Below, piece by piece: positions 18,305 to 37,144 of a DNA stretch of 64,000 nt. This stretch comes from Branchiostoma floridae (lineage: Eukaryota > Chordata > Leptocardii > Amphioxiformes > Branchiostomatidae), in the NCBI RefSeq assembly GCF_000003815.2, contig NC_049982.1, positions 30,912,407-30,976,406 on the forward strand, read 5' to 3'. A model generated the notes under the pieces. It saw only the letters and a list, made by a program, of their open reading frames with translations, searched no databases and was not told the DNA's origin. A program made the position numbers and the translations under genes. Positions within the stretch are counted from its first letter, which is position 1; each line of letters starts with the position of its first letter.

Positions 18305-18359
18305 ATGAGAGGCTATCTTGTCATCTCCACGATCAGCTGCTGCCTGCTGCTCGTCTCTG
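18305..18359 (+). CDS. Receptor exon 1: signal peptide
   Basis: MRGYLVISTISCCLLLVS then a phase-1 donor. It is a short n-region with one Arg, a hydrophobic core, and likely cleavage shortly after the join to exon 2 (GSRTRG). Phase 1 matches every downstream module. Confidence 0.7.
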
Positions 18360-21300
18360 GTAGGAACTGTACATAAAATCTATGTCTGCAGATTGATAGG
18401 GAGGGGTGCATATTAATTTTGTGATTGGCCTTCTTTCATTTGCAATATCTATTAAAGAAAAAGTGGAACACTTCGTCTTCCACTGCTTCTATCCGTCCAT
18501 ATTATTGCTAGAATGGTCACCTGCTTCCACTTGTCACCATTGTTATCTATACCAAAGTCTTTTATTTTATCGATGTTTATTATATGCCCCATGTTGCAAT
18601 TAGCCCTCGGGCAAGAATTTGCCTAAAAAACTCTCAAATACCGAAAAAAACATATTTGTTTGACGGTCATAGTCTACATTTATTATAACACAGAAGAGCG
18701 TGCGCAAAATATCATCATCGATAGTTATGAAATTTAAGTGTACAGGAAGGTTGAACAAATGAGGACAGAGAACATGGTACACATAATAATGACATCTATA
18801 GTTTTGTTCTTTCACATCTCCACTGAGTATATTTGATTTAGATGACTTTGCTGAGGGCTCAAAATTATGGTATGCAAAATTGGGTCAAAAAGCAGAGAGA
18901 GAAAATATCTTGCGAAGGAGGGAAAATATCCTGGCAAGTGAAAACAGTTTCTACGAGGGGAAATGGATACCTTGTGCGATAGGGAATAAAAGTATATAGA
19001 GAGAGGAAATAGAAATAGAGATAGAGAGGAGGTATGCGTGACTTACAAAATGACAGGAGCAAGTGTCCATCCTTGCTCATCCTTGTTTATCCTTACCCAC
19101 TCTTATTTATACTTACCCATCCTTGTCCGGGCATTCTAACCAATCCTTGCGAAATGTCTGTTCATCCAAGAATGATCAAGGATGGAAAAGAATAAGCAAG
19201 GAAGACCAATGATGAGCAAAGATGGGCAGGGATGGGCAGGGATGAACAAGGATGGGCACGAATGAACAAGGATGGACAAGAATGAGCAAGGATGGACTAG
19301 GATGAGCAAGAATGGATAATGATAGGCAAGGGCAGTTAAGGATAGGCAAGGATGAACAAGAATAAGCAAGGAAGACCAATAATGAGCAAGGATGGGCAGG
19401 GATGGGCAAGGATGAATAAGGATGAACAAGGATAAACACGCATGGGCAAGGATGGACTAGTATTGCCCAGATTTCCGGTTCTTTCCGTGCAGGTGCACGT
19501 CCGTTAAAAGTGGCGCGACCAGGCAAGAGTTTTTTGGGTCCGGCGTATAGGTGTACCGTTAAAATCCTGCGTTTTCCTACACAGTCGCGTGCACGTTGAT
19601 TCCCAAAAACTCGCACAACCCTCGTGTTACCACACCGAATATATAACAATAAGCTTTATAAGCTTTTTAAGCAATATAAGTCACGCTACGTGAAATATAC
19701 GTACGGAGAACTTCATTTTTCCAGTAGGAATGGAAATGAGGTTCAAGACAATGAGGTTTTCAGTGTTTTAAGTTTGTGGCTGAAAGAATACTGCAGTAAG
19801 TAGAAATGCAAATGTAAAGGCAAAAGAATTCAAAAATGGTTGAATCATTATGGATTTCATTCAGTTTGTTTTTATTTCATCAGGCTTTTGAGTGTCAGAA
19901 AGTTCCTAGATGCCTGGGCACGCTTGAAGTACGATTCCCAGTGTACAAACCGCCTGCAACATTGTCATCCCTTTGTCGTCACGTAAAAGTTACGTTTAGA
20001 GAAAAAGTGCTCCAAATTGCCAGTTCTGTACAAAATGATACCAAAAGTATACCACTGTCTTCTCCGTGTATATGGGTTATTACTTTTTATCTTATACGCT
20101 ATACTAAATTTACTTTATATTCTCAAAAAAGAGCAACACGTCATACCATTTCAATAATGATGGGCATAAAATATAATTGGCCACGGAGTATGAAATCCCC
20201 ATTGTCTGTCTGACATACAGGTGTTGGCAGTTACACCGGGCATCATCAATTTTTCAAATTTCATTACTCAATATTATCATTAATATCCATATGCACTCAT
20301 TGCCTTCCATTGAGTTGTTAGGACCCAGACGCCCGTTAGTAACAAGGGTGTACCGGTATAATTCCCCGTGGAACTGAGTGCTAGCATCGCAAAGAGACTT
20401 TCTGGTTCGTTTCTGTTTTCGTGTCTTTGGCCGCGACGTTTCGGCCGGTGTCACAGCCATCTCAATTAGCGCACTTAAACTATTAGCTATAACATTGTAT
20501 TCTACCGAGTAGAATCTTATTGTATACGTGGAAAATTTGACATAACAACCTGAGTGTGCTTTTTTTTCAGTACGTAAGGCCACACCAATTTAGTGTGTTG
20601 CTTGTCGGATTTTCCATCACGTTTTTTTCTGATTTGGAAGAAAAGAAAAGAAAAATAATTAGGTTTTCCTATTGCAGACCCGTAAAAAAACACATACTGC
20701 TGATAAACCCAATCAGATAGCTTCGTTGTAGTCATTGAAAATAAGTAAATGCAATACACATGATTTCAGTATGAAAACAATTCCATTTATTCAGAACAGT
20801 GGTATCAAATCAAAGGAAGAGATTAATTTGATAAATCATGCCATGAAAAGGAAAAAAAAAAACTTAACTACTAAGCTTGTTGTTTTGTGTTATATAAGCC
20901 TCATATGTTCTCCCCCAGACTTTTTGCAAATTTTGTTATTTTTATTTTTTCGACCGCCCGACCCGATATTTTTCTGAAAAAAAAAACGAGAAGTAACAAG
21001 TCAAATTGGTGTGGCCTAATTATCTGTCAATGTTTGTATTAACTTAAAGAAAACTGTGTAGGGTGTGAGGACGCACTTGGCTAATCTTCCAAATGTTTAC
21101 ATGGTAATCAATCTATTGGTCTCCATGGCTAACAAGAGTTCGGAGACCTCATATATCAATGAAATAGTCTGATTATGTTAATGACTTCCACATTTGCATA
21201 ATCTATGCTTTGTTATGTACACCTGTCAATAACCTACGCTGGTCACTATGTTGATTGTTCAATCATTCACCACATCAATGAATTATGGCACGTTTGCATT

Positions 21301-24300
21301 GATTATGCAAATTAAGGACGGGTTTGCATAATTGGTATCTGATAATGTTCCACCGCCACAAACTACATATATTGCATATATTTGAGCTCTATAAAGGAAA
21401 CACTACAAATACAGATTTTCCTCATTAAATATGCGAATTTAGTGTCAGTTTGCATAATTTGCCATCATGATGTGCATCACTGTCTAAACTACCTACATAC
21501 CAAATATCATGAAAATTTGTCGTTTCCTTCTTCAGTTATCCATCTTAGAAGATTTTGACAAAAATGCCGCTGCAGTTCCAGAGCAACCTGTTAGGGGGAC
21601 CAAATATACACCACATATCCCTCATGTCACAAGCCATCTGCCATCGAAAATCAAAACCATAGCACATCCAGTTCAAAAGATCCAAAAAAGATGAATTTCT
21701 GCTGCAGTACCAAGGTCACATACCAGTTGGCCTAAAATTCAGCTTGACCTCAAGTTGTCTTCCCAACACCTACCCACAAACCAAATATCATCGTAATCCA
21801 TTCAGAGTTCCTTGAGATATGCTAACTACAAAAATCCGGACACACAGACACACAGACAGACACACAGACACACCCAAAAGTATACCTCCATTGCCATCTT
21901 TACTACGGGGTTACGTTAGGAAGTAAGAAGGACACACTATTCAGAAGCTTCGTGATGGAAGTTACATTTTACGCAAACTGCTTCTTAAAATAAGGCCTTT
22001 ACTTACAGTAGGTGCACAGAGTCTTGACATACCTCTCTTAGCTCAACTACCCTTTGTGTAACTATCTTTTTGCATGTATATATCACCTGTTTGTTGTTTG
22101 TATTGATGTATATACCACTTATTTGTTTATGATGTATGTATAATTGATGTATGATTATTTTGGACGAAGACCGTCAATACATCGATATCCAACCTCCTGA
22201 ACGAAGAACATGAGTACAAAAATCCATTTGGTAACTAAGCTAAAGGCACAACCCGCCGTACGTGCAATTTGTATGAACGTTTGGGGGGTGGGGGGTGGCC
22301 ACGTCCGCCACGTATTTCTGAAAACGTTCAGCTCTACAGGGCAGGCGCGTCGCCCGTACTGGCACGTACGAAGGGCGAAACCGCAGTCCAATATGGCACA
22401 CAAAGTTTTGCCTGCACGTAAAGTTCTACGGCCTGTCTGTGTGCTACAAAATCCGTCGGATTCCCTACGAGTTCGTACGGAGGCGGTACTTACTACTTAC
22501 GGATCCCCAAAGCTTGCCCTGACGTTTTGGCACGTAGACAGCACGTATTTGTCACGTACGGCGAGTTGTGCCCTTAGCTTTACTAATATAAGACTAGAAT
22601 GTTCCACCCTGTCCCTCACCCCAAGGATACTCGGACTGCTCTGAAGCGTACTGTATTCTTGTAAACATGTGGAGAATTGCACTGGATCAAACTGGTTATT
22701 CTTGACCTGAGGGTCATCGGACTATACTACTGCCGCAAGGGGAGGGGGTGTATACCACTTTCTTACACTAAAATACTCCCTACCTCATTCAGGAAGCAGA
22801 ACCCGTGGGTACACCAGTCTGGGGTGCTGGAGGGACACTGCTGACCGCGCCATTCCGATTCTTGAGGGGACAGATCCACTCCTAGATGGTGTAAATTACC
22901 AGGAACGGGACAACGCCATAGAGAAGTGTTACCAAGTAGCACGTTCTCGTGGTTTCCCCGTGTTTGCTGTACAGCATGGCGGATCGTGTTTTGGGTCTGC
23001 TGATGGGCTCAATACCTACAACAAGTACGGGCCTTCCATGGACTGTGCAGGGGACGGCGAAGGTGGGGGTTGGGCAAACGAGGTCTACATGATCACCGGT
23101 CAGTGCTAGTAGATGTTGTACAGATGGAAGCTAAGCAAGTGTACGTTGTATTTTTGCCGTCCCATCATGCAATGCGTGCATATCATTATATCATTAGCCA
23201 GGGAATTGTGCCATGTAATATCATTGATGGTATTTGTCAAAATATCTTTGATTGTCGTTCGATACTTCTCCACTTCAAATGCACCTCGAAAGTTTTCAGT
23301 ATATTAAAAACTTTCGGGCCAGCCAAAAGAACGGACACAAATATCTGGAATGATGTGAGAATTTCTAGAACGCACCACGAAATCAAAGGGATAGAAAATG
23401 ATGTTCATTCTGACGGCATTCCGGCTCATTCTTGCTCTCGTGCGAATCCGTGTCACTGTGACATTTCCAGAAGGTCTCAAGTCGTGCCGCGACGACTTAC
23501 GCTGCGGACAGGACTACCCTGCAGAAGACGGCCACCCTGCCCTGTGCGACCCTCACAGTGCGTACCCGTGCTGCTCCAACGGCGGCTGGTGTGGCAGCAC
23601 CATAGACCACTGTTACTGCCATGGTTGTGTGGACTACAGGAACACCCTGTCAGGTGGGTACTTGTTTATTTAATTTGTTTATGTGTTATTTTACCAGGGT
23701 AGGCCCCCATCAGTGACTGGCACCGTAGTCATTGATTGTTATCTAAGTTAATGATGCCACATTTTAGTGTGTTCGTAATAAGATACACTTTATTCATCAT
23801 TGTCCATACTACAGTATCGAAAGAGACAAACTATTTAAACTAGTCAACAAACTTTTTCCCGGCTTTGCACAACGCACCGAACTAAAAAAAACACTAATAG
23901 TACCACCCAATGCATATGTTTCCGAAAAATGTCGGGAATTTCATCCTCCACTGCATACGGAAAAGAAATCAAACTCAATAGCATTCATTTTAGATTAGAC
24001 GTATCACTAGTTGATGACCCCTATTTCACTTAATTTCCATCTGTTTTTATTTTATACCATTCAGTACCATTATCGTTATTGTACTGTCATGTATTTTTGC
24101 AAATAGCCTTCGGCATGAGTTTGCCATAGAGATTCTATTAACTCATCTCCGTGATAAGTCGAACGTCACGTATTTTTCGTCCCATGTGACGTGAATTTAG
24201 GTCAAAGGCAAACGTTACGTACACGCTGTCCAGCGGCAGACTACGTCCGTTTTAATGGAGTTTGCTACAAGAGCTTTACGGGAAACAAGACGCGAGACGA

Positions 24301-27300
24301 GGCCAGCGAGGCGTGTGCGGCCGACGGAGGGATGTTAGCCATACCGAAGGACAGTAAGACCAACGCCTTTCTCGCCAGTCTACCTGAGGTAACAGGTGGT
24401 CGCTGGCTTGGGCTGACTGACGCCAACGGTGACGGTCAGTGGGTCTATGACGATTGCCAATTCCTGACGTCATCCGATTTTTCCAACTGGCAACTGAACG
24501 ACACTGATAACGGTGCCGGGTGTTTGGCATTTTGGGAAAACGGGACCACGTGGGATCCAAGAGGCTGTGACCTCCCAGGGGGATTCATTTGTCAGCTACA
24601 TGAAGGTATGTGTTTCGATCTTTCTGATTATGTGATTCTGATAAAGCTAAGGGGAGAGTCGGTAGCTAAATTCGGCAATGTGTAAGCTAGTCTTAACACA
24701 GATATACAAAACTGTAGTGTGTGCCATCGACATCCTTATTTCGATATTACTGAGTTAAGGATTCTCTTCCTCTTCCCCAGCTATGTGGCTGTCACGGGAC
24801 CCGTCGTGGGTTGTGGTCTCCCACGGCAGACCACTAGTCAGCAACGGAGTCAGATATGATGCCGCAAAAACCTTGGATGGGGACACTAGGACCTACTGGA
24901 GCCCTGGCGGCGGCCAATGGTACAACAACTGGTACATCGTATTTGACCTCACAGTGCCGCACACTCTGTCCGGCATCGCAGTCTACAACTACGGAGACGG
25001 CACCCATGATATTCAAGCCTTCACGTTGCAAAAGTCGCAGGTTGGGAGTTCGTACAACTGGTTGGACGTCGTTTCCGTCATCAATGTTCAAGAACTGACC
25101 ACACAGCATCAGACGTTCGGCGGGTTCCAGGAAACAGCGCGGTACTGGAGGTTCGTGGTCACTTGGACCCACTCAGGCTGGCAGCCATGGCTCCGAGAAC
25201 TGTACCTCTACGGAATGTCATCAGGTAAGGGGAAATATCACTCTTTTTTGTTTTGTTTTCACGGTTATCTAAACAAATAATGACACCAGAAACGGATGAC
25301 GTGCGAAGCGCTGAAGTGTGAGACGTTGGGACTTTCTATGCTTACGTATTTCATATCACAACATTCATCAAAACGTACTCATTTACGTTGGCATTTTTGC
25401 AATAGAAAAGAGTGCATTGTGCCGAAATTCAGTTTAGTCTTACTAGCGACAAAAAGCTTGTTTGAAGATTCAATAGTTCCAAGCACCAAGTTCGTCTTAT
25501 CTTTACTTCATCTAGTCCCAAACGTTATCTGAACGAATACTTCACATGATATCTCTTACGCGATACTGTAGTGTCCCCTTAGCTTGCTGTTTCTGTTCCT
25601 CTGCTTTTGACGAACATTCCACCCGCAGACAAAATCAATGCACTGACTTTGTCGTGAGAGTTGAAAGGTCCCCTCGTTTATCCACGTGCCTGTCCCCTAC
25701 CCGTGTACAACAACATGGCAGGCAACTCCGCAACAATAGAATAGGCACTTGTTACCTTTTTGTACCCTTGCAATTAGCCAACGGGCATAAATTTGCAAAC
25801 AAATTTGTTACGAAAAGCACATTCAATACGATATATTAATATATATAGGAAATCTCGATGGTGCGGCAATCCATCCACAAGTTCATTTCAAAGTCTAAAC
25901 ATTGATCCGTGTTTGAACACATTTTCAGTGTGCTTGCGAATTCCTGCTGATTTCCAGCTCGACGGGAGACTGACGATGTTACCCAATCCGCTGGGCCAGA
26001 GGACTTTCAACGAGATCCAGAATTCCTCTGTCGTGGCGCTGCTCAGTACATCCAACAGTATCCCGGGGGAACACCACCCGGAGCTACGAGAATTCGTGTC
26101 CGCCGTCCTCTTCCCGCGATGCGATGTCCCAGAAGAGGACATGTCCAACTGTTATCCAAAAACCACGACCTCGTGCGTGTAAGTAGCCAACATGTGTTCA
26201 GGTCCATACGAATCGCACAAATTACTCCTTACCTATGCTACGGTCACAATTGGGGAAAAAAGAGGCCCCGACGTTCAGTTAAGGTTTTTGCACTACAAAT
26301 ACAAATCACTACGTGGCTTCGTGGGGCAACCTGTGGCCACCGGGCTACATTTGGGCACGATCGGGCCCGGATTTAAAAAAAAAGTTAAAATCAACCCGGG
26401 GCCCGTACTCGGCGATAAATAGACGCCGTGACCAAATCGTAAAAACTCCGAGACGTACCGCCTCGGTATCCGACAGTCTACCGGGACAAATTTGCGGCTT
26501 TAGAGCCCGGCCGGGGCTGCATCCCTGACGGGCACCGGTGCAAGTGTGACCGTAGCATTCGCCATGTTTAAATTTGGCAACGAGTTCAGTTGATATGAAT
26601 GTTTCTTCTAACAGTGACGTAAAAAGGTAAACACACGTACCTCTAAAATTTTCGACGGCTATCTGTCCATCTTGATCACCGATTAACCTAGTTCATCCAA
26701 GTAAGATGTGACGGGTCGTTCGGTGTAATGTAACCAGCTGCTCCCGCGCCGCGCGCCTGCGAAGCTGGTGTGTTACGCCGAACGGCGGTTATACCGGCTA
26801 TATAGATACAGATACAGAGGGGCATAAGATCCATGCACATCTCGACCTACTTCTCGCAGCTCTCGCAAGAGCAAGCCAATCGGTGATCACGAAGGACATC
26901 TAGATAGCCATCGAAAATTTGGAGGTACGTGTGTTTAGGTTTTAAAGTACGTCACTGTTAGAAGAAAAATGCCTACTAACTGTGCTCATACGTGACTAAT
27001 GAATCTCTTCAATGGTAACGAGTTATTTTTCATCAGGGAATGTCAACCACCGATCAGCCGTTGATGCATTCATGCTCATAGCTGTAAGGTATACAGCCTC
27101 TTCAATGTTAAGGTTCGCTAAGCTTATAAGAAGCTCTTTTACTTGTGACAGTGTGAATGCTTGTTCAGAGGTATGTTGACACTTTGTGATGTATATCGGC
27201 TGGTGCTAAATGTACTTATTTTTCTTAGTTGCAGACAGTTGCTGCCATGCCGTTCTTTGTGTGAGGAAGTGTTCAGTATGAGTGATGGCCTGATGAGGGA

Positions 27301-30300
27301 CCTGCTGCCTCCATGTGATGTGTTCCCGTCGCCACAGCATGGCTGCTGGAACACTGACACAGCGGTGAAAGGCAGAGAAGGTAGACATCATAACTTGATT
27401 GGTATTTTTGCAAGATACGTCGACGAAGGTCATTCTCCCACGCAGAGACACCCAACAACGCTAGCAAACCACCTCTTGTCTGTACACTGCTATCTCAACC
27501 GTCCCCATCAGTTCCTGACCGCCCTGCTTATAAATATTAATCTGCTTACCTTATATGTGAGATCCCTTTTGAAAACTGAAAGGCATATTCTATGAATGGC
27601 TGACGGCTGGTTTGTGGCGACGCCCACAGGAACTGATAGTGACGGTTGAGATAGCAGAGTACAGACAAGATGCGGTTTGCTGGCGCCGTTGGATGTCTCT
27701 GCGTTGGAGAATAACAAAGGTTAGAAATCCAAGGAATAAGATACGCCCAACAGTCAAGATCTCTACAGTGTCCCTGACTTAAGATATGGATGCTATCTGA
27801 AACATCTGGTCGTTTCTAAAATCATAATGATGCAGTAACTTGAGTAACTGCTTTTTGGCGTATGATCTGTATTGTAAAACAGCAAGGAGGTTATTCTTAT
27901 TTTAATACGTTTATCTTCTCTATATTTTTGATGACCGGAATCATATCCTCGTACTGACATGAAAATCATAACTGTAAGCACTGTGCCTCTATATCGTGAG
28001 CCGGCAACATCTTAATTCTAGCAGCATCTCAACGTCTCAACGAAACCTTATGTCGGCTTGCTACATTCAGGAAATTTATTCAACAATACAAATCAGCAAT
28101 ACCCTGTTCTGTAAGTTTTGAAAGACATAGCAGGTTAATATTCCACCGACTTTTCCCCTTTTGAATTTTTCCTCAGTTTGTTACCACAGCACTGGCATGA
28201 ATTACCGTGGAACATGGAGTACAGCGACTTCTGGGGCAAAATGTCTCGAGTGGTCAGCTCTACAAGCTGTTTACTACAAGGACAAGTACCCCTGGGCTAA
28301 CCTGGACAGGAACTACTGCCGCAACCCGACCGGACTCCAGCGGCCATTCTGTCTGACTGGAGACGGTAGCCAGGAGGAATGTGACGTCATTCCGTGCAGT
28401 AAGTTGTTTCATTCATCACCATTGTATCTATTTTTGGAATCATCAAAGGCAATTATTATGTGGCTAAAAATCTTATTTTGCCTTTTCATTATTATTAACC
28501 CTTTTCACTGTTTTATTAGTACTAAACCAGATTTCGTCAAACTTAAAATTACAGTTTACAGCAGTCTTGCAGTTTGGGTCATTGTCAACTTCAGCCTTGC
28601 TACAAGGCATCTCTAGTTTCATACTACTGTATATTTTGTTATCTCCATGAAATATCATGTATATTTTGTTGTCTCCATGAATTATCATGGAGATTATATT
28701 TCCACCAGCGTTTTCATGCGTGAGTGTCTGTGTACAACAAGGTAACTCAGGAACCGCTGGATGGACTGGTTTTCATACTTTGTGTTTAGGTGGGGTGTGA
28801 CGAAAGCCGGAAATGATTAGATTTTTGGCTACCTAGCGTCTTCTCTTTGTACTACAGCGGAAATCCGGGTTTGATATCTCGCGTTCTGTACAAGATTTGG
28901 TCACGATTTTGAGGTCTTAAAGAGCTCTTGCGGTCGAAAGAGGTGACGTGAGTTTGGACTCCTAGCGACTAGGAATTGCAGGGGCATTTTTGACAATACT
29001 AGTCGCCGAACTCTAGTTCATATCATATTTTGTATTGACTTGATTTAATCATTTGTTTTTATGTTTTTCATTTTAATTCATTATTTCTTTGTTAATCAAT
29101 GCCCGAATGCCATTTTATTTAGTAACGCCCTACTTTCCTGTCTTACTCTCAGATTTTGTTGGTTGTTGGGACAGAGGTCCTCCAAACTACGGCAAGAGAA
29201 CTCCCAATAAGATGTTCTACTTCTTAGAAGAAAAGGTGACCTACACGTGTAACGACGGCTACACGCCCGAGTACGGCTCCCCGACAGTAGCGACTTGCCT
29301 TGCAGGAACCAATGGAGGAGTCTGGGAGTATGCCACGCCCGTTTGCTCAAGTGAGTCATTGCCGAACTACGCAGAGACAGCCTCCCACACAGGGTTGACT
29401 ATCACGACAATGCCTTACGATATCACCCCTGCCTTTTCAGCCGCAGAAAACGGGTATTAGGGGCGTTTCTTCTGACCAACTGTCTGCCCATCAGAGAAAT
29501 GCATTTTCTGATGTCTAAAGGCGCCAAGTAAACAGTACCGACATAACGTTTCACAGTCCTTTCAGCGTCCAGACGTCTTTATCAGGTACTAAATTTAAGA
29601 TATGTCGGTTCTGTTAGTCTAGGGTAACCACGTCATCACCGTTTATCGACCTAGCATACGAAAAAAAAAACATTATCATCGTGCAAAAATAGATCTTTGT
29701 GCACGCCGCGCCGTACGCTGTTTGTTCGAAACTTGCAATCCGGCCGCTGATTGGCCCGCGACAAATCAGGCAAGCTCATTAAAAAATAAGCAAATCGCCC
29801 CTAATACCCGTTTTCTGTGACTGAATTGGCAGGGGTGTTATCGTAAGGCATTGCCGCGAAAGTCAACCCTGTGTTATATAGGAGGGTGCGCAGAGACGAA
29901 CCGGCGTCCTAGAACTATGCCTGCTAATGCTCTGCCTAATCACGCCATAGACGCCACCAATTATCCGTCCTGCTTATGAATATTCATAAGTTGTGTCATT
30001 CAACACAAGTCAACCAGCTCAGTGTGACGATTAGCTGGCAGCTGGTTAGTGGCGACACCCACAATGTGAGGGCAGTACGAACCAGTGAGTGTTCCAAGTG
30101 GGTTTGTCTCTGAGTGCATAGGATAATGTGACGAATTTAAACTTTCGTATCCCAAGCAGCTCTAGATCATGGTCTATATTTTTGTTCTTGGCAAACTAGG
30201 CAAACTATTATTGAGAATTATTGGCAAACGATTATTAGAGGCCATTTACATCAGAGCCCACCAACCTTCCCTTAACCGAGACGGGGGCCGATACCGACTG

Positions 30301-33300
30301 CCAAGCACCTTTAACCATTTCCTGACGTCACACTTCCGTTCCGGATGTGTGACGTAGGTATTGGGTCATTTCAACTTGAGAAGGATCAGAGGGCTGATCG
30401 CTAAGCGCTTTATTTTGTGCACGGATATAAAATCTTAAAATTGGAACGAAACATTATTGAGAATATTTCTCTCGGTAGAAAGGTTACTACCTGTCAAAAT
30501 ATAGAACTTTGTTGCCTTTTTCGGTACCGTGATTTTTTAATGATCCCGTTTTTAGATTAGAGTTTTTAGGTAATCTATGCATCCTTAGATAACTATATGT
30601 TATTTTGTTTTTGCATATGCCTATTTTGCGTTCTCTCCAAGCAGAGGTTCAGTCACGGTTGTTTGCCAGACTGGAATACAAAAAGAAAACAGTAAAAAAT
30701 TGAAAGCCATATAAAAGCGCCTGGAAACATATCAAAAATAGCCAAGGCCTAACCTCTGCTCTGAGAGTATGTTTTGTGGATATACATGTAGGCATCAATA
30801 CACACACTGTATATAGCTTCAAGATTTTATAGTAAGATTTCGCCCATACACAGACGAAACCGCTTCGTCTGGCGATCTTAATGTAATCTTTGCATTTGAA
30901 TTGCTGCCGTGTCCCTGTAAGATTTAAACAATTTCATACCTACAGAACCAGTAGTAAATTGCCCTTCACACAAGCAAGAATGAACCGGAATGCCGTCAGA
31001 AGTGATTTTCTTTTCTATTCCTGGCGATTCTTGGCAATTCGTAGTTTGTTCCAGAATTCGTAGTTCTATTTGTGCCGTTCTGTAGGCTGGCCCTAAAGTT
31101 TTTGACATGTCAAAAACTGTCGAGATGCATTCGAAGTGGAGATATATCGAATAGCATTCAAAGTGGATTCTAAGTGTATTCTAACTATTTAAACTACATG
31201 TACTGGTATGACCGCATTCTACGGAATTCCAACATTATTCGAAACATTTTTATGTCATTCGGTGGAGAACCGAAACGGCAAGCCACTTTGAATTCTGCCA
31301 GAATGCCGACAAAAGAATATCTGGAATGCAGTGAGAATTTCTAGAATACACTACGAATTCCAAGGAATAGAAAAGAATTTTCATTCTGACGGCATTCTGG
31401 CTCATTCCTTCTCGTGTGAAGGGGATATAGGGTCCGTTTGGAATTCCCACCCGAATGGCCCCGAATGTGGCACGAATTTTGCAAATACTTCATTCCGGCT
31501 TGTTCTGCTTGATTCCTGCTGATTCGGTTTTAGTGTGAAGGCCTTATAAAGATGAGAGGTGCACAGAATCAGAGTTTAAAGTCATTTTCTCACAAGCTAA
31601 GCTTCTAACCTCTTGTTTAGTAAACCATAAGCGGCGACTGCAAAAGGATCTTCTAGCCGCAGAACTCTACAGTGCAAGTTTGGCCCCTGAAAATGTCATC
31701 ATCAACTTCACGGGAACTGTGCAGCAGATCGTTGACTTGGTAGGTACTTTTGACAAATTTAACTTTCCTTCTTTTTTTAATTAAGAAAATTAATTGAAGT
31801 GTTTGGTGGCCAAAATTCACCATGAAAAACGTAATAATATGATCTCTTTTATGCAGGACGAAAAAAAGGAGCAACTTCTCGCTTCTGTGGTCATCGATTT
31901 CGTAAGTTTGCACAACCATAGTAACTATGCCCTGTAGTATACCTATCTCTCACTCCCAGGACCTGATTTGGCGCCCTGCACATGGTATATGGGGTTTGTG
32001 GCCGTTCACCTCGAAAGCTTATGTCAAACCCCGGCGTACGTGCAATTTGTCCGTAAGTTTTCTTTTGGGGAGGCCACGTCCACCACGTATTTCTGAAAGC
32101 ACTCGGGCTGTACAGGGCAGGCGCGTCGTCCGTACTGGCACAATTCTGTAGTTTACGGGGGGGGGGGGGGTTTGATTCCGCAGCTCGATGGCACATTAAG
32201 TTTTACCTGCACGTAAAGTTCTACGGCGTGTCTGCTTGCACCCAAATCCGTCGGATTCCCTAGGAGATCGTACGGAGGCGGTACTTACCACTTACGGGTT
32301 CCAAAAGATTGCCCATGTTTTGGCATGTAGACAGAACGTATTTGCACGTACGGCGGGTCGTGCCCTTAACTTAAGCCAAGACTGCTAGAAAAATCTGAGA
32401 TGTAGCAATATGAGCTGAGTATCATTAAACTCTTTCAAATAAACCCTCTTAATATCTTTCAATAAACTGAACTGAACCCTTCAATCCAGTTTAAGCTTTC
32501 GATTTTCTGTCAGATGAAAATTGGACTCCATTTTTGTGTAAACAGGCGGCTCTTTGTCTTAGAAATAAATGTACGTACATGTATCTATTCTCTTGAGTAT
32601 GAAATTTTGGCAGTCACGTTCACTTGAATGGCAAGTAGTGAACAATTCGTTATATCATCTTGGTGCAATACGATTGTAGGCCAGAACGTAGTTCCTCAAG
32701 CAACTGGATATGGTTTTGGAAACGGTCAGACGTTTCCACTGCTATCCGGTAGTTTTCGTCAGTGACACTGAATAGATCTTGTTGGAGAGGGTTTATATAT
32801 CCTAGATGTGTATTTATATATAAAAGTGATCTAAAGTTTAGTTAAATCAGTTCTATCTTCACCAGATCTATTCGGTGTCAACTGTTGGATAGCAGTTGAA
32901 ACGTCGGACCGTTTCCAAAACCATACCCAGTTGAGTAAATACTTTTTGACGTATCTTATTACGTGAATGTCTAACCTACATCGACTGATTTTACATTATC
33001 TTTCGTAGTCATGGTACGACAGGCGGCTGAAGTGGACCCCGAGGTATTACAATGGTACCGAGACGCTCAGTGTTCCTGGGAACAATCTTTGGACACCTGT
33101 ATTTACTCTACAGAGGAAGTAAGTAGAAATCAGATATAGATGGTATAAAATGTGTCAAATGTGCATCAAAGTCGCCTTAAAACCTTAAAATATTTCTTCA
33201 TTTTTTTTTGAAAAGTTGATGCGCGCGCGAATGTCATCCATATATCAAATCAAAATATGGCCTACACATCCTCCTACACAGGGACATCCAACGGCGAAAC

Positions 33301-36300
33301 CGGCTATCTGGGTGAACCCTGCTTTCTCTTCCGTAACTCTTAGTTCCAGTGGACGTCCCCTCAAATCAGCTGTCAGCCAATGACAGAATAGGCCTTTCAG
33401 TTTTAAACAAGGGTTTTGCATATGTAAGGGTAAGCTCATTATTATTCCCCGTTCGGGCGGTCAGGAACTAAGGGTGACGGTTTAGAAAGCAGGGTACATC
33501 CCGACAGGCGGTTTCGCTGTTGGATGTCCTTGCTTTGGAGGATGGGCCTACGATTAACGACAAGACATTTTCCAGCGCCAACCCGCTCCACCAAGGCCTA
33601 TCAAAGGACGTCCCGGTCCGAGTCAGCAGTAGTGGACGGGTGGAGTGGACAGTGGGGACCCTGACCACCACCGTCTGTGATGCTGACCCCTTCTTCTTCC
33701 CCGCAGACACCATGGATTGCCAGATCTGTTTTTCCGCAACCTCGGCAATTAAGCAAACCATACGTGAGATTTTCAGATATTTCTAGTTCTAGTTCAGGTT
33801 CTAGTTCTAGTTCTAGTTCAGGTTCTAGTTCTAGTTCTAGTTCTAGTTCATAGTCTGCAACTTCCTGGTAGGAATATCTTAAATGGAGGAGGCGCAGCAT
33901 CTGCGAGTGGTGTGAGATGATAGCAACCTGCTCTTGAACTGTCCAGTGAGGGGCTGTCGACAATGTAGGCTGTTCCACTCGGGAAATGTCCTGGCGTAAA
34001 AAGCATATTTTGCATCGTAGAGTTCTGTACTTATGTCAGTGGCTTGCACTTCTAACGATATGGTCTAGCGAGGACGGACGCTTTAAATTTACTTGTGCCA
34101 CCGCCTGAAGAGAAATGGGAGTAGTCCACTCAGGATAAATCTTTCAGTAACAATTCCAGAGTGAGCAGAAATCTCGATGCCGTCGATATCTTGTACACAC
34201 TATCCCGGTAGCAGTATGTTGAATTAATATTTTAATTACAGAATGCCATGGGGGAAGTTCTCCATCAGATGCACATGAGGAAAGCCACCCTTGTGACTCC
34301 TTCTCCCCCGCCAAACCGGACGGAGAATGGTACCGGAGAGATATGATCTTCGCAAAAGACAGAAAAGAGGCTTGCTTTTCTGTACAATTGTCTAGGATCC
34401 CCACGTTCCACATTGCCACGACTGTTGGGCCCTGCGTCATCCTGATTGTGCTGATGACCATCACCTTTATCATGCCCATAGACCAGGGAGACCGGATCTC
34501 CTTCGGAGTGACCATTCAACTCTCTATGGTCGTGTCTCTCGTGTTTGTTACAGAGGTTCTTCCTGTCAAGGGGGCTCTGCCATTTCTCGGTGAGTACTTA
34601 CACGAAATTATCGATCAATCATTCGCAGGCATCATAGTCTGATGCATAGCGGCTACAGACATGGAAAGTTTACGGCAAGTTGATCAGTCCTGGGCGTACT
34701 CTCTCCAGTTGGTTCTGGAGACCCCCAGCTCTTTCAATGTGTTGAGGATCTGGTCTTCCCATCGCCCTCTTTGAGAACTGCTCTTGGTGTGTGTCCTAGG
34801 AAGGTCATTCTTTGCCACGCAATTCTAGAAGTGACTGACGGTTGTTGTTTTTGTTCTATGGACGTAATTAATGAAACATAATGATTTACTTAGTTGCAAC
34901 GTTCGAGCTATATTCCAACCTGAGAAGGAAGACACACACCATGAATGAATGGCATCATAATGGAATCGATTTTGCCGACCTTTATCAGATTACTGATTCA
35001 CTACATTGACGTTCCGAAAGTCGGAAGTGACGTCAGGAGCGTATCAAAAGTGGCGTTAAACTAAGACAGTATCTTTGTCAGACTTTTGGAACGTCATGGC
35101 AGTATAAATCAGTCATCAGATGAAGGTCAACGACTAAAACTTCATGGTGAGTGTCTTCCTTCTTTTGGAATATAGCTCAAATTGTACAACGATGGATTCT
35201 ACTAACACTGGTGAGTCTTCAGTCGAATGATTATTAAGTTTTACTCATAAACATTTTGCACGCAATAAACAAGTGAAGCGTGTTGTCAAAAAAATGTATC
35301 CGCTTTAAATTTTAATTTCTTTAGCATATCTATCATAACCACACTCCTCTACCAACGAAGCAAACGAATATGTAGATGTTGTAATATAGATAAGTTAGAG
35401 GACGAACATCATTTTGTAGTAGTATAGTTTGTACAAGAAAGAGAGAGCTGAACTCTATAGACGGATAGAACCCATGTTCTCCCAATCCATACAACAAATT
35501 TATAGTCCTTATGAATTCAGACAAACCTTTTCTTATAAAGCATATCTGTTCCTACATTTTCAATGTAAGAAAAAACCCAGAAGCAGTCGAATTCACGTTG
35601 TAGAATACGATTATTGTGTATTGTAGATTCATTGTATATTTTCATGTATCTTTTGTTGCGACCTGTACTGAACCCAGTAGGTATGTATGTACAATAAAGG
35701 TCTTCATACATTATGTAATTTCACAGCCACGCTGATAATCGTGTGCATGGGCCTGATGGGGCTCTTCCTCTTCATCACTGTGGCCGTCATCTTCATTTAC
35801 AACAAGGAGGGGTGTCTGTCTCCGGGGGCGAGGGTTCTATTTCTCCGCTACATTGCAAGGTACTTAATAGTTATCCTCTATAGCAGGGTCACTTGTGCCG
35901 ACTATGATGAGGTCGTTCCTTTAAGCTAATGGCACAACCCGCCGTATGTGCTATTTGTCCGTACGTTTATTTATTTTTTCTTTGGGGGGGGGGGCACGTC
36001 CGCCTCTTATTTCTGAATACGTTCAGGCTGTGCAGGGCAGGCGCCTCGCCCATACTGGCACGTACGGACGGCGAATCCGCAGCCCGATGGCACACAAAGT
36101 TTTACCTGCACGTAAAGTTCTACGGCGTGTCTGCGAGCTCCCAAATCCGTCGGATTCCCTACGAGTTCGCACGGAGGTGGTACTTACCACAAACGAAACC
36201 TCAAACGATTGCCCGCGTTTTTGCACGTAAACAGCACGTATTTGCACGCACGGCGGGTTGTGCCCTAAGCTTAACGACTTCTTGACAATGTATTTCTTTC

Positions 36301-37144
36301 TTTCTAAAATAATGATAGTCTTTATCAGAACGGACGCGCCACCGTATTTTTTATAACTTCCACCAAATTTGTTTCGATTGCCGATAGCTTATTGATCCAA
36401 CATTTGTTGGCGATTTCTAAACATAACTAAAAACAGCTTAATGAGTCAAATCCATACACGTAAGAAACGACTGAAAAGCTTTTAGGAATTCTTATAGGTA
36501 AATCCCAAGCCTCTTGCAGCTTTTTTTAAACTGTAGATTTATTACCAACTGTAGACTACAGGTGTGCGGGTGTCGTGGTGTTGCATTGTAGGCACCAGAT
36601 AGCATCAACTTTATTTTGTATCTCGTATGATTTGTAAAGGGCACTGCTTCTGGGAGATCTAACGAAGTCGAAGGAGAAGCAAAACAGCAGTGGTACTGCG
36701 ATAGAGATGACCAACACCGCCTTTTGTGACGATGATGTGCCGGTAGACGATGGAGCAAGTGTGGCTGTAATGTGGCTGCAGAACAGTGGAGACCCCGGGA
36801 GGACCGGGCCGCCAACAAACCCTCCTACAGCCCCCGAGTCTCCAGGATTTCTTCACTTGATCTCCAGCGTGCGTGAGCTGACTAAGGTGGTAAAGAAAGG
36901 AGACGAGGAGCTGACTAAGGCGGTAAAGAACGGGACGGAGAGGCTGACGAATGAGCTGGTGGATGTAAAGAACAATCTGACAGAGGTAAAGAGTGGGATG
37001 GAGGAGCTGACCAGGGCCGTGAAAAGCGAGGAGGAAGTTTCCGACTACACCCTGCTGGCGAAGGTCCTGGACAGGCTGTGCCTCGTGGTATACATCATCA
37101 GCGTCGTTACAGCCATCCCGATGACTATGTACTTGAGCAGGTAA
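18305..37144 (+). CDS. Chimeric lectin/Frizzled/kringle/sushi Cys-loop ligand-gated ion channel
   Basis: Sixteen exons: 18305-18359, 22793-23098, 23471-23653, 24201-24605, 24781-25224, 25929-26178, 27229-27380, 28177-28398, 29153-29350, 31621-31739, 31857-31901, 33009-33118, 33486-33763, 34242-34589, 35727-35859, 36640-37144. All junctions are GT-AG and phase-compatible, giving 1250 residues. Order: signal peptide (1-18), WSC-like (~25-120), hevein-like (~121-181), C-type lectin (~182-316), F5/8C (~317-464), Frizzled CRD (~465-598), kringle (~599-672), sushi (~673-738), then a pentameric channel subunit (~740-1250). The channel has WYDRRLKW, a Cys-loop with FPAD, four membrane segments and a coiled-coil M3-M4 loop. 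Module exons are phase 1-1, apart from the two-exon Frizzled CRD. Family knowledge predicts a plasma-membrane, cation-selective channel (-1' Asp, 20' Glu in M2). The aromatic-box Trp of loop B and the loop C CysCys pair are missing, so acetylcholine is an unlikely ligand. The alternative is two neighbouring genes (1-9 and 10-16), but exon 10 joins exon 9 in phase and has no signal peptide. Confidence 0.75.
19071..19455. repeat. Inverted 12-bp minisatellite arrays
   Basis: 19164-19455 is a degenerate ~12-bp array (GGGCAAGGATGA / AACAAGGATGGA). 19071-19145 carries the same unit in the opposite orientation (TCCTTGCTCA). The two arrays could pair as a long imperfect hairpin. Long minus-strand ORFs (PSLPILAHP-like) are artefacts of the repeat. 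It lies in intron 1 of the receptor. Confidence 0.8.
20578..21016. mobile_element. MITE with GGCCACACCAATTT ends, TAA target duplication
   Basis: Inverted termini GGCCACACCAATTTAGTGTG and GGCCACACCAATTTGACTTG; flanks are TAA (20575-20577) and TAA (21017-21019). TWA duplications are typical of PIF/Harbinger. About 440 bp, T- and A-run-rich, no ORF. Receptor intron 1. Confidence 0.7.
21135..21920 (-). repeat. Dispersed repeat of the 4852-5879 family, reverse copy
   Basis: It starts ACAAGAGTTCGGAGACC and ends with (CAGACACA)n and CAAAAGTATACCTCCATTGCC, the complement of the 4852-5879 element. Receptor intron 1. Confidence 0.55.
22237..22580. mobile_element. ~350-bp MITE (GGCACAACCCGCCGTACGTGC ends), copy 1
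   Basis: Inverted ends AAGCTAAAGGCACAACCCGC and AAGCTAAGGGCACAACTCGC (reverse complement of the right end). The body has TTTGCCTGCACGTAAAGTTC and AATCCGTCGGATTCCC, shared with copies at 32015-32374 and 35921-36274. All three sit inside introns of the receptor gene. Open frames across it are repeat-derived. Confidence 0.8.
22793..23098 (+). CDS. Receptor exon 2: WSC-like cysteine-rich module
   Basis: The module starts GYTSLGCWRDTADRAIP, then KCYQVARSRGFPVFAVQHGG, SCFGS, YNKYG, DC and GEGGGWANEVYMI. The GC(W/Y)xD...RA(I)P...C...GF..FAxQxGGxC pattern resembles WSC/lectin-like modules common in lancelet and echinoderm extracellular proteins, and glycan binding is likely. Phase 1 at both ends. 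Confidence 0.65.
23110..23462. repeat. Intronic repeat of the TTCACACGAGAAGGAATGAGC family
   Basis: 23280-23450 matches, in part, 30962-31420 and 37246-37620 (TATCTGGAATG, TTCATTCTGACGGCATTCYGGCTCATTC). It ends about 20 bp before the acceptor of receptor exon 3. A fragment is also present at 11515-11600. Confidence 0.5.
23471..23653 (+). CDS. Receptor exon 3: hevein-like (chitin-binding type 1) module
   Basis: CRDDLRCG then PCCSNGGWCGSTIDHCYCHGC. The CCSxxGWCGxxxxHC core is the chitin/GlcNAc-binding motif of hevein-type domains, with the aromatic residues W and H/Y on the binding face. About 60 residues, phase 1-1. Confidence 0.75.
24201..24605 (+). CDS. Receptor exon 4: C-type lectin domain
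   Basis: The long-form start CPADYVRFNGVCYKSF, WxGL-type core RWLGLTDANGDGQWVYDD, ASEAC, then CLAFWENGTTWDPRGCDLPGGFICQ. The QPD/EPN position reads LND and the WND motif reads TWDPRGC, so Ca2+-dependent sugar binding is uncertain. About 134 residues in one exon. Confidence 0.85.
24781..25224 (+). CDS. Receptor exon 5: F5/8 type C (discoidin-like) domain
   Basis: Contains AAKTLDGDTRTYWSPG, NNWYIVFDLTVPHTLSGIAV and ARYWRFVV with LRELYLYG at the end. This is the DG(d)xxTxW...WxxxDL...Ix...R(Y/F)xR(F)...LxELxxYG pattern of F5/8C domains. These bind carbohydrates, lipids or proteins. About 148 residues, phase 1-1. Confidence 0.75.
25929..27380 (+). CDS. Receptor exons 6-7: Frizzled cysteine-rich domain
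   Basis: Exon 25929-26178 and exon 27229-27380, joined in phase 2. Visible: LTMLPNPLGQRTF, LREFVSAVLFPRC, then PCRSLCEEVFS, LMRDLLPPCDVFP and HGCW. These match the MLPNxxxH..., FLCxxxxPxC, PCRxxCxxV and xxCxxFP blocks of Fz domains. The pairing with a following kringle recalls ROR/MuSK receptors. Wnt or lipid binding is possible but not shown. Confidence 0.75.
26233..26562. mobile_element. MITE with ATGCTACGGTCACA ends
   Basis: The left arm TATGCTACGGTCACAATTG pairs with GCAAGTGTGACCGTAGCATT at the right. It is a GC-rich, ~330-bp non-coding element in the intron that splits the Frizzled CRD. Confidence 0.6.
26602..26966. mobile_element. MITE with ~90-bp inverted arms (CTTCTAACAGTGACGT ends)
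   Basis: Arms 26602-26690 and 26875-26966 are complementary (CTTCTAACAGTGACGT...GATCACCGATT). The interior (26700-26830) matches, in reverse, 45235-45345 in the cytokine locus (GTTCGGTGTAATGTAACCAG). Confidence 0.65.
27431..27714. mobile_element. Long-arm inverted-repeat element (GACATCCAACGGCG family)
   Basis: Arms 27431-27517 and 27627-27714 are complementary over about 87 bp. The arm motif TCCAACGCAGAGACATCCAA is shared with the inverted repeat at 33280-33540 that overlaps receptor exon 13. It begins about 50 bp after the exon 7 donor. Confidence 0.7.
28177..28398 (+). CDS. Receptor exon 8: kringle domain
   Basis: VCYHSTGMNYRGTWSTATSG, CLEWSA, NYCRNPTGLQRPFCLTGDG and CDVIPC. This is the classic C-Y-x(n)-Y-R-G-x..G..C..W......NYCRNPD....PWC....C.IP.C pattern, slightly shortened (PFC for PWC). 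Phase 1-1. Confidence 0.9.
28650..29010 (+). repeat. Dispersed repeat of the 4852-5879 family, short copy
   Basis: Begins GTCTCCATGAATTATCATGG and ends CGCCGAACTCTAG; an internally deleted relative of 4852-5879. It lies between the kringle and sushi exons. Confidence 0.6.
29153..29350 (+). CDS. Receptor exon 9: sushi (CCP) domain
   Basis: GCWDRGPPNYGKRTPN, the KVTYTCNDGYTP core, ATCLAGTNGGVWEYATPVC. It has four cysteines and the W before the last Cys, as in CCP modules. It ends in phase 1 (A), which joins TA of the first channel exon to give Ile. Confidence 0.85.
29387..29875. mobile_element. MITE with ~80-bp inverted arms next to the sushi exon
   Basis: Arms 29387-29465 and 29796-29875 pair (CACAGGGTTGACTATC..., GCCGCAGAAAACGGGTATTA). 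The element begins 36 bp after the sushi donor, so the insertion nearly reaches the exon. Confidence 0.7.
30630..30769. mobile_element. Small MITE (CTCTCCAAGCAGAGGT ends), copy 1
   Basis: TTCTCTCCAAGCAGAGGTT at the left, AACCTCTGCTCTGAGAG at the right. A second copy lies at 56750-56940 with the same ends. Confidence 0.55.
30962..31420. mobile_element. Inverted-arm element (CCCTTCACACGAGAAGGAATGAGC family)
   Basis: CCTTCACACAAGCAAGAATG...GCCGTCAGAA on the left and TTCTGACGGCATTC...TTCTCGTGTGAAGGGG on the right are inverted. A related element is at 37246-37610, just past the receptor stop codon. Confidence 0.55.
31621..33763 (+). CDS. Receptor exons 10-13: Cys-loop channel ligand-binding domain
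   Basis: Exons 31621-31739, 31857-31901, 33009-33118, 33486-33763. Helix 1 is LQKDLLAAELYSAS. It is followed by DEKKEQLLASVVIDF, SWYDRRLKWTPRYY and NLWTP (loop A). The Cys-loop starts at C-DADP, with FPAD inside and exactly 13 residues between the two cysteines. After the loop the frame reads CFSATSAIK. Nicotinic-type channels have a Trp (loop B) where this has Thr by eye alignment. The first ~15 codons of exon 13 lie inside an inverted repeat. Confidence 0.8.
32015..32374. mobile_element. ~350-bp MITE (GGCACAACCCGCCGTACGTGC ends), copy 2
   Basis: Same ends and body as 22237-22580 (GCCGTACGTGCAATTTGTCC, CCTGCACGTAAAGTTCTACG), with a G11 run near 32160. Receptor intron 11. Confidence 0.75.
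32701..32933. mobile_element. Inverted-repeat element with GTTGAAACGTCGG motif
   Basis: The left arm CAACTGGATATGGTTTTGGAAACG pairs with CGTTTCCAAAACCATACCCAGTTG. The centre carries GATAGCAGTTGAAACGTCGG, a motif seen in many deuterostome dispersed repeats. Receptor intron 11. Confidence 0.6.
33280..33540. mobile_element. Inverted-repeat element whose right arm overlaps receptor exon 13
   Basis: Arm 33280-33349 pairs with 33462-33530. Aligned: CTGGAACTAAGAGTTACGG... against CAGGAACTAAGGGTGACGG..., and GCCGTTGGATGTCC against GCTGTTGGATGTCC. The TTAG acceptor at 33482-33485 and codons 33486-33530 lie in the right arm. The family is shared with 27431-27714. Confidence 0.65.
33783..33850. repeat. 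Hexanucleotide microsatellite (TTCTAG)n
   Basis: About eleven copies of TTCTAG with two TTCAGG variants, starting 20 bp after the exon 13 donor. Confidence 0.95.
34242..35859 (+). CDS. Receptor exons 14-15: loop C, M1, M2 and M3
   Basis: Exons 34242-34589 and 35727-35859. Pre-M1 SRIPTFHIATTVGPC keeps the IPxFxxxxxxxPC signature. M1 is followed by FIMPIDQGDR, then M2 ISFGVTIQLSMVVSLVFVTE and VLP. Aligned to nicotinic M2: -1' Asp, 0' Arg, 9' Leu, 20' Glu, 23' Pro. M3 is TLIIVCMGLMGLFLFITVAV. The loop C region has no adjacent cysteine pair. Confidence 0.85.
34905..35178. mobile_element. MITE with GAGCTATATTCCAA ends
   Basis: GAGCTATATTCCAACCTGAG...GAAGACACAC on the left and GTGTCTTCCTTCTTTTGGAATATAGCTC on the right. 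Inside, GACGTTCCGAAAGTC / GACTTTTGGAACGTC also pair. Receptor intron 14. Confidence 0.6.
35921..36274. mobile_element. ~350-bp MITE (GGCACAACCCGCCGTACGTGC ends), copy 3
   Basis: TTAAGCTAATGGCACAACCC to GGGTTGTGCCCTAAGCTTAA. The palindromic TTAAGCTTAA at the border is visible in this copy. Receptor intron 15. Confidence 0.8.
36640..37144 (+). CDS. Receptor exon 16: M3-M4 loop with hendecad coiled coil, M4 and stop
   Basis: The acceptor TAAAG/G restores the frame as IAR-ALLLGDLTKSKEK, the usual post-M3 LLLGDL pattern. The loop has 11-residue repeats (ELTKVVKKGDE, ELTKAVKNGTE, then degenerate) predicting a coiled coil. It then has the amphipathic MA-like DYTLLAKVLDR and M4 LCLVVYIISVVTAIPMTMYL. 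TAA at 37142. The repeats are also visible in the DNA as ~33-bp units. Confidence 0.8.

Follow-up and report, generated by a model that had tools for sequence, protein, structure and literature searches.

A Branchiostoma floridae gene predicted to join seven outer modules to a Cys-loop channel subunit

Does a single lancelet gene carry seven adhesion-type and lectin-type modules in front of a Cys-loop ion channel subunit, and what would such a protein do? The question arose from a window of 64,000 nucleotides of Branchiostoma floridae (RefSeq assembly GCF_000003815.2, contig NC_049982.1, positions 30,912,407 to 30,976,406 of the forward strand), in which sixteen exons had been traced by hand between 18305 and 37144. 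All coordinates below are those of the window, and all sixteen exons lie on its forward (+) strand.

Exon structure and outer modules

The 16 exons were rebuilt from the sequence. All 15 introns have GT-AG borders, the phases match, no internal stop occurs, and the frame ends at 37144. The original prediction had claimed sixteen exons without a frame break and a protein of 1250 residues; the exons, their joins and exactly this length were reproduced with its exon 13 start (33486), and only that start had to be replaced. Six of the modules are encoded by single 1-1 exons and the Frizzled-type module by two (1-2 and 2-1), behind a signal-peptide exon that ends in phase 1.

With the acceptor at 33576 (cattttccag) the frame is preserved and the product has 1220 residues. 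Relatives were compared over the exon 13 interval and taken as scorable if they carried the motifs needed to score it; this held for 65 of 82 aligned sequences, and in 65 of 65 the interval was short (32 residues or fewer), as in the 33576 model (22 residues). The start at 33486 was rejected because it falls inside a repeat (33268-33544) and disagrees with all scorable relatives; judged by these comparisons it is probably wrong, and 33576 is the better boundary. A start at 33541, used in the RefSeq model P0088, was also rejected, since it does not join in phase to exon 12 as correctly read.

Exon 1 (18305..18359) encodes the predicted signal peptide MRGYLVISTISCCLLLVSG, ends in phase 1 and has a matching start in the relative P0001. 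Exon 2 (22793..23098, phase 1-1) encodes a WSC module, for which Pfam gave 28.6 bits with the exon alone and 21.5 bits with the whole protein (cut-off 27.8). Exon 3 (23471..23653, phase 1-1) may be called hevein-like; the name is weak, being taken from cysteine spacing and a weak Chitin_bind_1 match (17.1 bits on the segment, under the cut-off of 27.8). Exon 4 (24201..24605, phase 1-1) encodes a C-type lectin module (Lectin_C, 46.4 bits, over cut-off), and exon 5 (24781..25224, phase 1-1) an F5/8 type C (discoidin) module (F5_F8_type_C, 39.3 bits, cut-off 28.2; a second model of this type was also over its cut-off in the whole protein). Exons 6 (25929..26178, phase 1-2) and 7 (27229..27380, phase 2-1) are assigned to the first and second part of a Frizzled-type cysteine-rich module. 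Exon 8 (28177..28398, phase 1-1) encodes a kringle (59.3 bits, cut-off 34.3), and exon 9 (29153..29350, phase 1-1) a sushi module (21.4 bits in the whole protein, 28.7 on the segment alone, cut-off 20.7).

The ligand-binding domain starts in exon 10 (31621..31739, phase 1-0), whose join to exon 9 was also seen in P0001, P0003 and P0007, and continues through exon 11 (31857..31901, 45 bases, phase 0-0) and exon 12 (33009..33118, 110 bases, phase 0-2). The corrected exon 13 (33576..33763), placed by acceptor and relatives, contains the Cys-loop, C864-C878. The end of the ligand-binding domain, M1 and the pore helix M2 were located in exon 14 (34242..34589) by Pfam and alignment, and Pfam placed M3 in exon 15 (35727..35859) and the intracellular loop, M4 and the stop in exon 16 (36640..37144), where the model of P0001 also shows helices. 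In the 1220-residue protein Neur_chan_LBD scored 95.6 bits (cut-off 26) and Neur_chan_memb 65.6 bits (cut-off 28.1). Lectin, F5/8C, kringle, sushi and channel of the predicted module list therefore stood over the Pfam cut-offs, Fz and Chitin_bind_1 stayed under them, and WSC exceeded its own only when searched alone.

The Frizzled assignment rests on relatives. Fz gave 21.5 bits on the segment of the window gene (cut-off 32.1), 14.5 and 18.7 bits in the nearer relatives P0007 and P0023, also under cut-off, and 47.2 bits, over cut-off, in the more distant P0070. Of the 11 cysteine columns in P0070 (one flanking cysteine included in the 11), 6 are retained in the window gene, which does not show the ten canonical Frizzled cysteines; across the family, 7 columns were found in 62 of 125 rows and 10 in P0083, P0126 and P0144. 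With cysteines retained in 6 of 11 columns, the idea that this protein senses Wnt found no support.

The lectin module has the Lectin_C fold and neither the EPN/QPD nor the WND calcium-site motif. In C-type lectins, EPN or EPD together with WND marks calcium-dependent sugar binding. Since EPN or EPD occurs in 31 and WND in 29 of 42 family lectins (including P0074, the window gene's own record), such binding is likely for many of the family copies. Glycan sensing by the window gene, which had also been proposed, is unsupported, because its lectin has lost the EPN and WND motifs that most family copies keep. The motif loss leaves room for other ligands of the lectin and Frizzled-type modules. 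The predicted structure of P0074 had a mean pLDDT of 57.2, and 49 of 50 rows of fold matches were lectins; that of P0001 had a mean pLDDT of 58.7 and was poor over residues 12-242, 307-381 and 925-998.

Several repeats were noted. An inverted-end repeat is present in two copies (33268-33544 and 27431-27712), both in introns of the gene, one of which offers the false splice site beside exon 13. A second repeated element occurs on the forward strand at 22240-22580, 32030-32372 and 35926-36272, with copies 77-82% alike and inverted ends of about 28 bases. In the first intron, a minisatellite-like run of AAGGATGGGCA and AAGGATGAACA units was noticed by eye at 19150-19460.

Two further features of the window are recorded. 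An open frame at 6557-6919 (+) matched Sulfotransfer_2 with 35.2 bits (cut-off 22) and is part of a carbohydrate sulfotransferase-type gene. Three phase-0 exons on the forward strand (43386-43763, an open frame; 61607-61774; 62182-62361) resemble a long-chain helical cytokine, with a hydrophobic leader, two helical exons and a stop after SQKYQ. Joined, they gave Pfam PRF (plethodontid receptivity factor) at E 0.0057 and 16.6 bits, under the cut-off of 22; a single exon gave IL11 at E 0.077, behind five other weak families, and a search against solved structures gave no match of note. PRF is related to IL-6-type cytokines, and a cephalochordate cytokine of PRF/IL-6 type, if true, would be worth a study of its own.

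The Branchiostoma family and its probable origin

Three protein searches returned 87, 70 and 112 matches, or 205 different records. The first two sets carried Branchiostoma names throughout; the third included 12 records from other animals (plasminogen, HGF and LDL-receptor relatives), which shared only kringle or LDLa among the mapped modules. A channel module was found in 182 of the 193 Branchiostoma records and both channel parts in 168, these counts being protein clusters from several Branchiostoma species and hybrids rather than genes, and automatic models of which some are partial or chimaeric. Upstream of the channel in the 168, sushi was present in 134, kringle in 127 and Frizzled in 114. 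Kringle, sushi and channel followed one another directly in 120 records, with Frizzled in front of them in 109, and 32 records, with lengths of 265-701, had nothing in front. The region before the Frizzled-kringle-sushi core (n = 127) held CUB-LDLa in 33 records, lectin-LDLa in 25, LDLa in 13, nothing in 24, and 20 rarer sets in the remaining 32.

The closest relative found, P0001, is 90% identical over residues 600-1060 and is a single predicted protein from signal peptide to pore. It starts with MRGQLVICAISCCLLLVSG, continues with the same kind of WSC module and has its sushi-channel join at the same place; start and join match likewise in P0007 from B. lanceolatum. Because the predicted protein of the closest relative is continuous and many Branchiostoma records are joined, the fusion is no chance join. 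The models of P0001 and P0007 and the family records support the central claim of the original prediction, that a single gene encodes a Cys-loop channel preceded by adhesion and lectin modules.

By these sequence comparisons the window gene is one member of a large Branchiostoma family and not a lone oddity. Its combination of modules had been described as unfamiliar, which was too narrow in treating it as a single case; no description of the combination or of the family was found in the open-licence PMC texts available, including lancelet and domain-shuffling papers, and papers elsewhere may exist. The particular set of WSC, hevein-like, lectin and F5/8C modules was seen, among the records found, in the window gene alone (and in its RefSeq fragment P0074). 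Window gene and P0001 differ in front (WSC, hevein-like, lectin, F5/8C versus WSC, lectin, lectin), yet their channel parts are 89.6% and 93% identical.

The protein searches reach near relatives only, as they depend on shared exact words within length limits, and in this range no fused relative was found outside Branchiostoma. In one search, which scored the 7995 candidates sharing most words, no receptor outside Branchiostoma was listed, though ordinary receptors match the query. Given the reach of the searches, absence outside Branchiostoma is not proven. At E 1e-3 no further copy was found in two flanking stretches of 20 kb, one on either side, which begin about 2.4 kb and 0.6 kb from the ends of the window. 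In databases, P0070, P0151, P0143, P0167 and P0088 are named MFRP, CHRNA9, CDCP2, CHRNA7 or CHRNA7-FAM7A fusion protein-like. The Branchiostoma entries LOC144877354, LOC118431627, 'MFRP' and 'CHRNA9' belong to the same family under automatic names, and names of this kind conceal the fusion and can lead work on orthology astray.

Ordinary acetylcholine-receptor-type gene clusters of the same genome (C3:12424001-12454000, C9:13404001-13434000, C14:12715001-12745000; loci L009-L017) can serve as unfused controls; they contain ordinary receptor genes and no fused relatives. Six ordinary exons of this type share the length of exon 12 (110 bases) and its phases (0 in, 2 out), as found in a search restricted to frames of exactly 110 bases with a W.D..L.W motif, to which other lengths are invisible. 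A seventh row was an overlapping chance frame and was discarded, and no 45-base partner comparable to exon 11 was found in the ordinary genes with the pattern used.

According to the text available, all acetylcholine-receptor genes of vertebrates share their first three introns (PMC6354393), and unusually frequent shuffling of phase 1-1 exons is reported for lancelets (PMC4284660). From the match of exon 12 in length and phases, together with the shared early introns, we infer that exon shuffling probably placed the module exons, in phase 1, behind the signal-peptide exon of what had been an ordinary receptor gene.

In a quick tree of 110 rows, made without bootstraps and marked by long branches and open forks, a very long branch (SH-aLRT 100) set 107 family rows apart from three canonical receptor genes taken from this genome, whose rows are without the beginning of the ligand-binding domain. 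On most of the deep family branches the set is CUB-(LDLa)-Frizzled-kringle-sushi, P0181 and P0077 having no recognised CUB. The window gene belongs to a derived group of 62 rows, in which lectin modules are common and a few members still carry CUB. Module labels change 21 times on the tree (lectin 9; F5/8C and CUB 7 each), a rough figure, as partial models blur the labels and 29 unlabelled rows were left out. The first module set was probably CUB-LDLa-Frizzled-kringle-sushi, and the derived clade would then have gained lectin, discoidin, WSC and hevein-like modules.

ROR proteins carry Frizzled and kringle modules. An origin of the Frizzled-kringle pair in ROR kinases was weighed and does not follow from the matches: in P0070 the kringle is closer to those of plasminogen and HGF than to that of ROR2, and the Frizzled part has matches in Frizzled-2 and Frizzled-7.

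The channel part and the competing readings

Pfam recognised both a ligand-binding and a four-helix membrane domain, as in Cys-loop receptors. The two cysteines of the Cys-loop, 13 residues apart, are kept in 83 of 83 sequences. Position -1' of M2 is D in the window gene and acidic in all 83, and 9' is Leu in 82; together with 0', 6', 13', the M1 proline and the Cys-loop, these positions are near-invariant. By these residues the pore is probably cation-selective. The acetylcholine site is another matter. At the four test positions (the aromatics of loops A, B and D and the cysteine pair of loop C) the window gene has Q, T, V and A, and in 81 of the 83 sequences none of the four residues is present; the loop B W and the loop C cysteine pair are intact in the three canonical receptor genes taken from this genome. 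The alignment shows that the acetylcholine-binding residues have been lost in the family. Extra conserved cysteines are found at 881, 894 and 910.

With confidence somewhat better than even, the gene is read as a subunit of a pentameric, probably cation-conducting channel of the acetylcholine-receptor branch, which probably acquired seven outer modules by exon shuffling and would use them as a built-in extracellular scaffold. The modules would tether and cluster the channel on partner cells, matrix or glycans, so that one chain would take over the part played for nematode acetylcholine receptors by LEV-10 (CUB, LDLa) and LEV-9 (sushi); gating would then depend on a factor other than acetylcholine bound at the classical site. 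The scaffold is suggested because the probable ancestral module set resembles separate receptor-clustering proteins. It is proposed by analogy of modules, and descent from clustering proteins does not follow from the matches of P0070. Against the scaffold stand the window gene itself, which has neither CUB nor LDLa, and the deep rows P0181 and P0077, in which CUB does not appear. The reading as a whole is further opposed by the split RefSeq models, both of which look faulty, and by the 32 of 168 two-part records without a front module.

The main rival is a channel in which a glycan, microbe or partner-cell ligand bound to the outer modules opens the pore directly, as in pattern recognition or contact chemosensation. 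We regard it as a serious contender that nevertheless falls well short of even probability. The frequent lectins of the derived clade and the calcium-site motifs of most family lectins would fit such recognition, as would the lost acetylcholine site. Octopus chemotactile receptors are described in the text available as acetylcholine-receptor channels turned into contact chemosensors (PMC11526382, PMC10338036), and Lectin C-type domains and 'channel activity' are both listed as enriched among dispensable lancelet genes in the available part of PMC12373286, which can serve as a lead only. This rival is weakened by the lectin of the window gene, which lacks both motifs, and by the hypothetical coupling between modules and gate.

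It is unlikely that the outer part is the working part, i.e. that the product is an adhesion or decoy protein anchored by a non-conducting channel domain. The degenerate ligand site and the strong diversification of the outer modules would be expected of such a protein, but the near-invariance of the M2 positions, the M1 proline and the Cys-loop over 83 sequences is hard to explain without conduction.

Less probable still is a pair of genes, one for a secreted lectin-kringle-sushi protein (exons 1-9) and one for a plain channel subunit (exons 10-16). RefSeq does divide the B. floridae locus into two half models, of which P0074 reads through the exon 9 donor and ends beyond it and P0088 ('CHRNA7-FAM7A fusion protein-like') begins within the exon 12 region, and the 32 records without a front module could be added on this side. 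Both halves are faulty, however. P0074 starts at 22393 in the repeated element (22240-22580) and lacks exon 1; the protein of LOC118413770 is identical to the window over the seven modules, RefSeq having used the first copy of the element as its first exon. P0088 has exon 12 out of frame and is without a leader and half of the ligand-binding domain. A separate signal peptide before exon 10 was part of what the original prediction had named as counting against fusion. A scan with a hydrophobicity rule and any GTA or GTG donor found no signal-peptide exon in phase 1 between exons 9 and 10 by criteria that the real exon 1 passes, the background being 0.46 per 2270 bases over 24 stretches of the window. 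A narrower donor pattern gave five weak stretches there (top hydrophobicity 1.97) but did not recover the real exon 1. In the 120 records counted above, moreover, the channel is joined to kringle and sushi. The two-gene model was therefore rejected, on the faulty halves and the missing signal-peptide exon, and the RefSeq split looks like a prediction error. Least credible of all is a decaying copy, for which the repeat beside exon 13 and the canonical residues lost from the Frizzled-type and lectin modules could be cited; it is opposed by an uninterrupted frame of 1220 codons and by GT-AG borders that are intact in all 15 introns.

Beyond the reading as a channel with a built-in scaffold, a broader proposal is offered tentatively. 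The family may be a receptor class of the lancelets' own, adhesion-type pentameric channels in which a large and still shuffling set of recognition modules on a cation pore turns contact with a glycan, a microbe, matrix or a partner cell into ion flow without a neurotransmitter. The ancestral set may correspond, in one chain, to the extracellular scaffold that in other animals consists of separate proteins clustering acetylcholine receptors.

Comparison with known systems

In the text available to us, animal members of the superfamily are said to have only ligand-binding and membrane domains (PMC549065), and a paper of 2022 reports extra N-terminal domains in several prokaryotic pentameric channels that had not been observed in any eukaryotic homologue (PMC9897478). 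The remark in the original prediction that some invertebrate subunits carry extra N-terminal domains is at odds with the latter statement. PMC4795631, by its available text, discarded the ends of its sequences. A chordate family with up to seven modules would, if real, overturn the negative statement for eukaryotes (PMC9897478, as available). It would also supply natural chimaeras with which the coupling of outer domains to gating could be studied, and may show a receptor and its clustering scaffold merged into one gene. The case suggests that the transmitter site of a neurotransmitter receptor can be lost and the receptor remodelled through exon shuffling, a process for which this lineage is known (PMC4284660).

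The window gene shares with nicotinic acetylcholine and 5-HT3 subunits the ligand-binding domain, the Cys-loop, four membrane helices, the pore motif and the 110-base exon 12. It differs from them in the seven modules in front, in the loss of the acetylcholine-site residues and of the loop C cysteine pair, and in the added cysteines 881, 894 and 910. Octopus and squid chemotactile receptors have, to our knowledge, no extra outer modules. Compared by description, they are like the family in being lineage-specific acetylcholine-receptor-like channels that gave up acetylcholine (PMC11526382, PMC10338036, in the text available). Prokaryotic channels such as DeCLIC, likewise compared by description from available text, also carry extra domains before a pentameric channel, but different ones (PMC9897478, PMC549065).

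Several of the family's outer modules also occur in other proteins. As described in the accessible part of PMC9083331, clustering of nematode acetylcholine receptors needs both LEV-10, with five CUB domains and a single LDLa, and LEV-9, with eight sushi domains, and Neto proteins carry CUB and LDLa. The clustering or auxiliary proteins LEV-10, LEV-9 and Neto share CUB and LDLa or sushi with the family; like the ROR kinase CAM-1, they differ from it in being separate proteins that act on receptors and are not fused to them (PMC9083331, PMC6083452, text as available). Kremen, compared by its description in the available text (PMC3927612), combines kringle, WSC and CUB, all of which are present in the family, in a protein without a channel.
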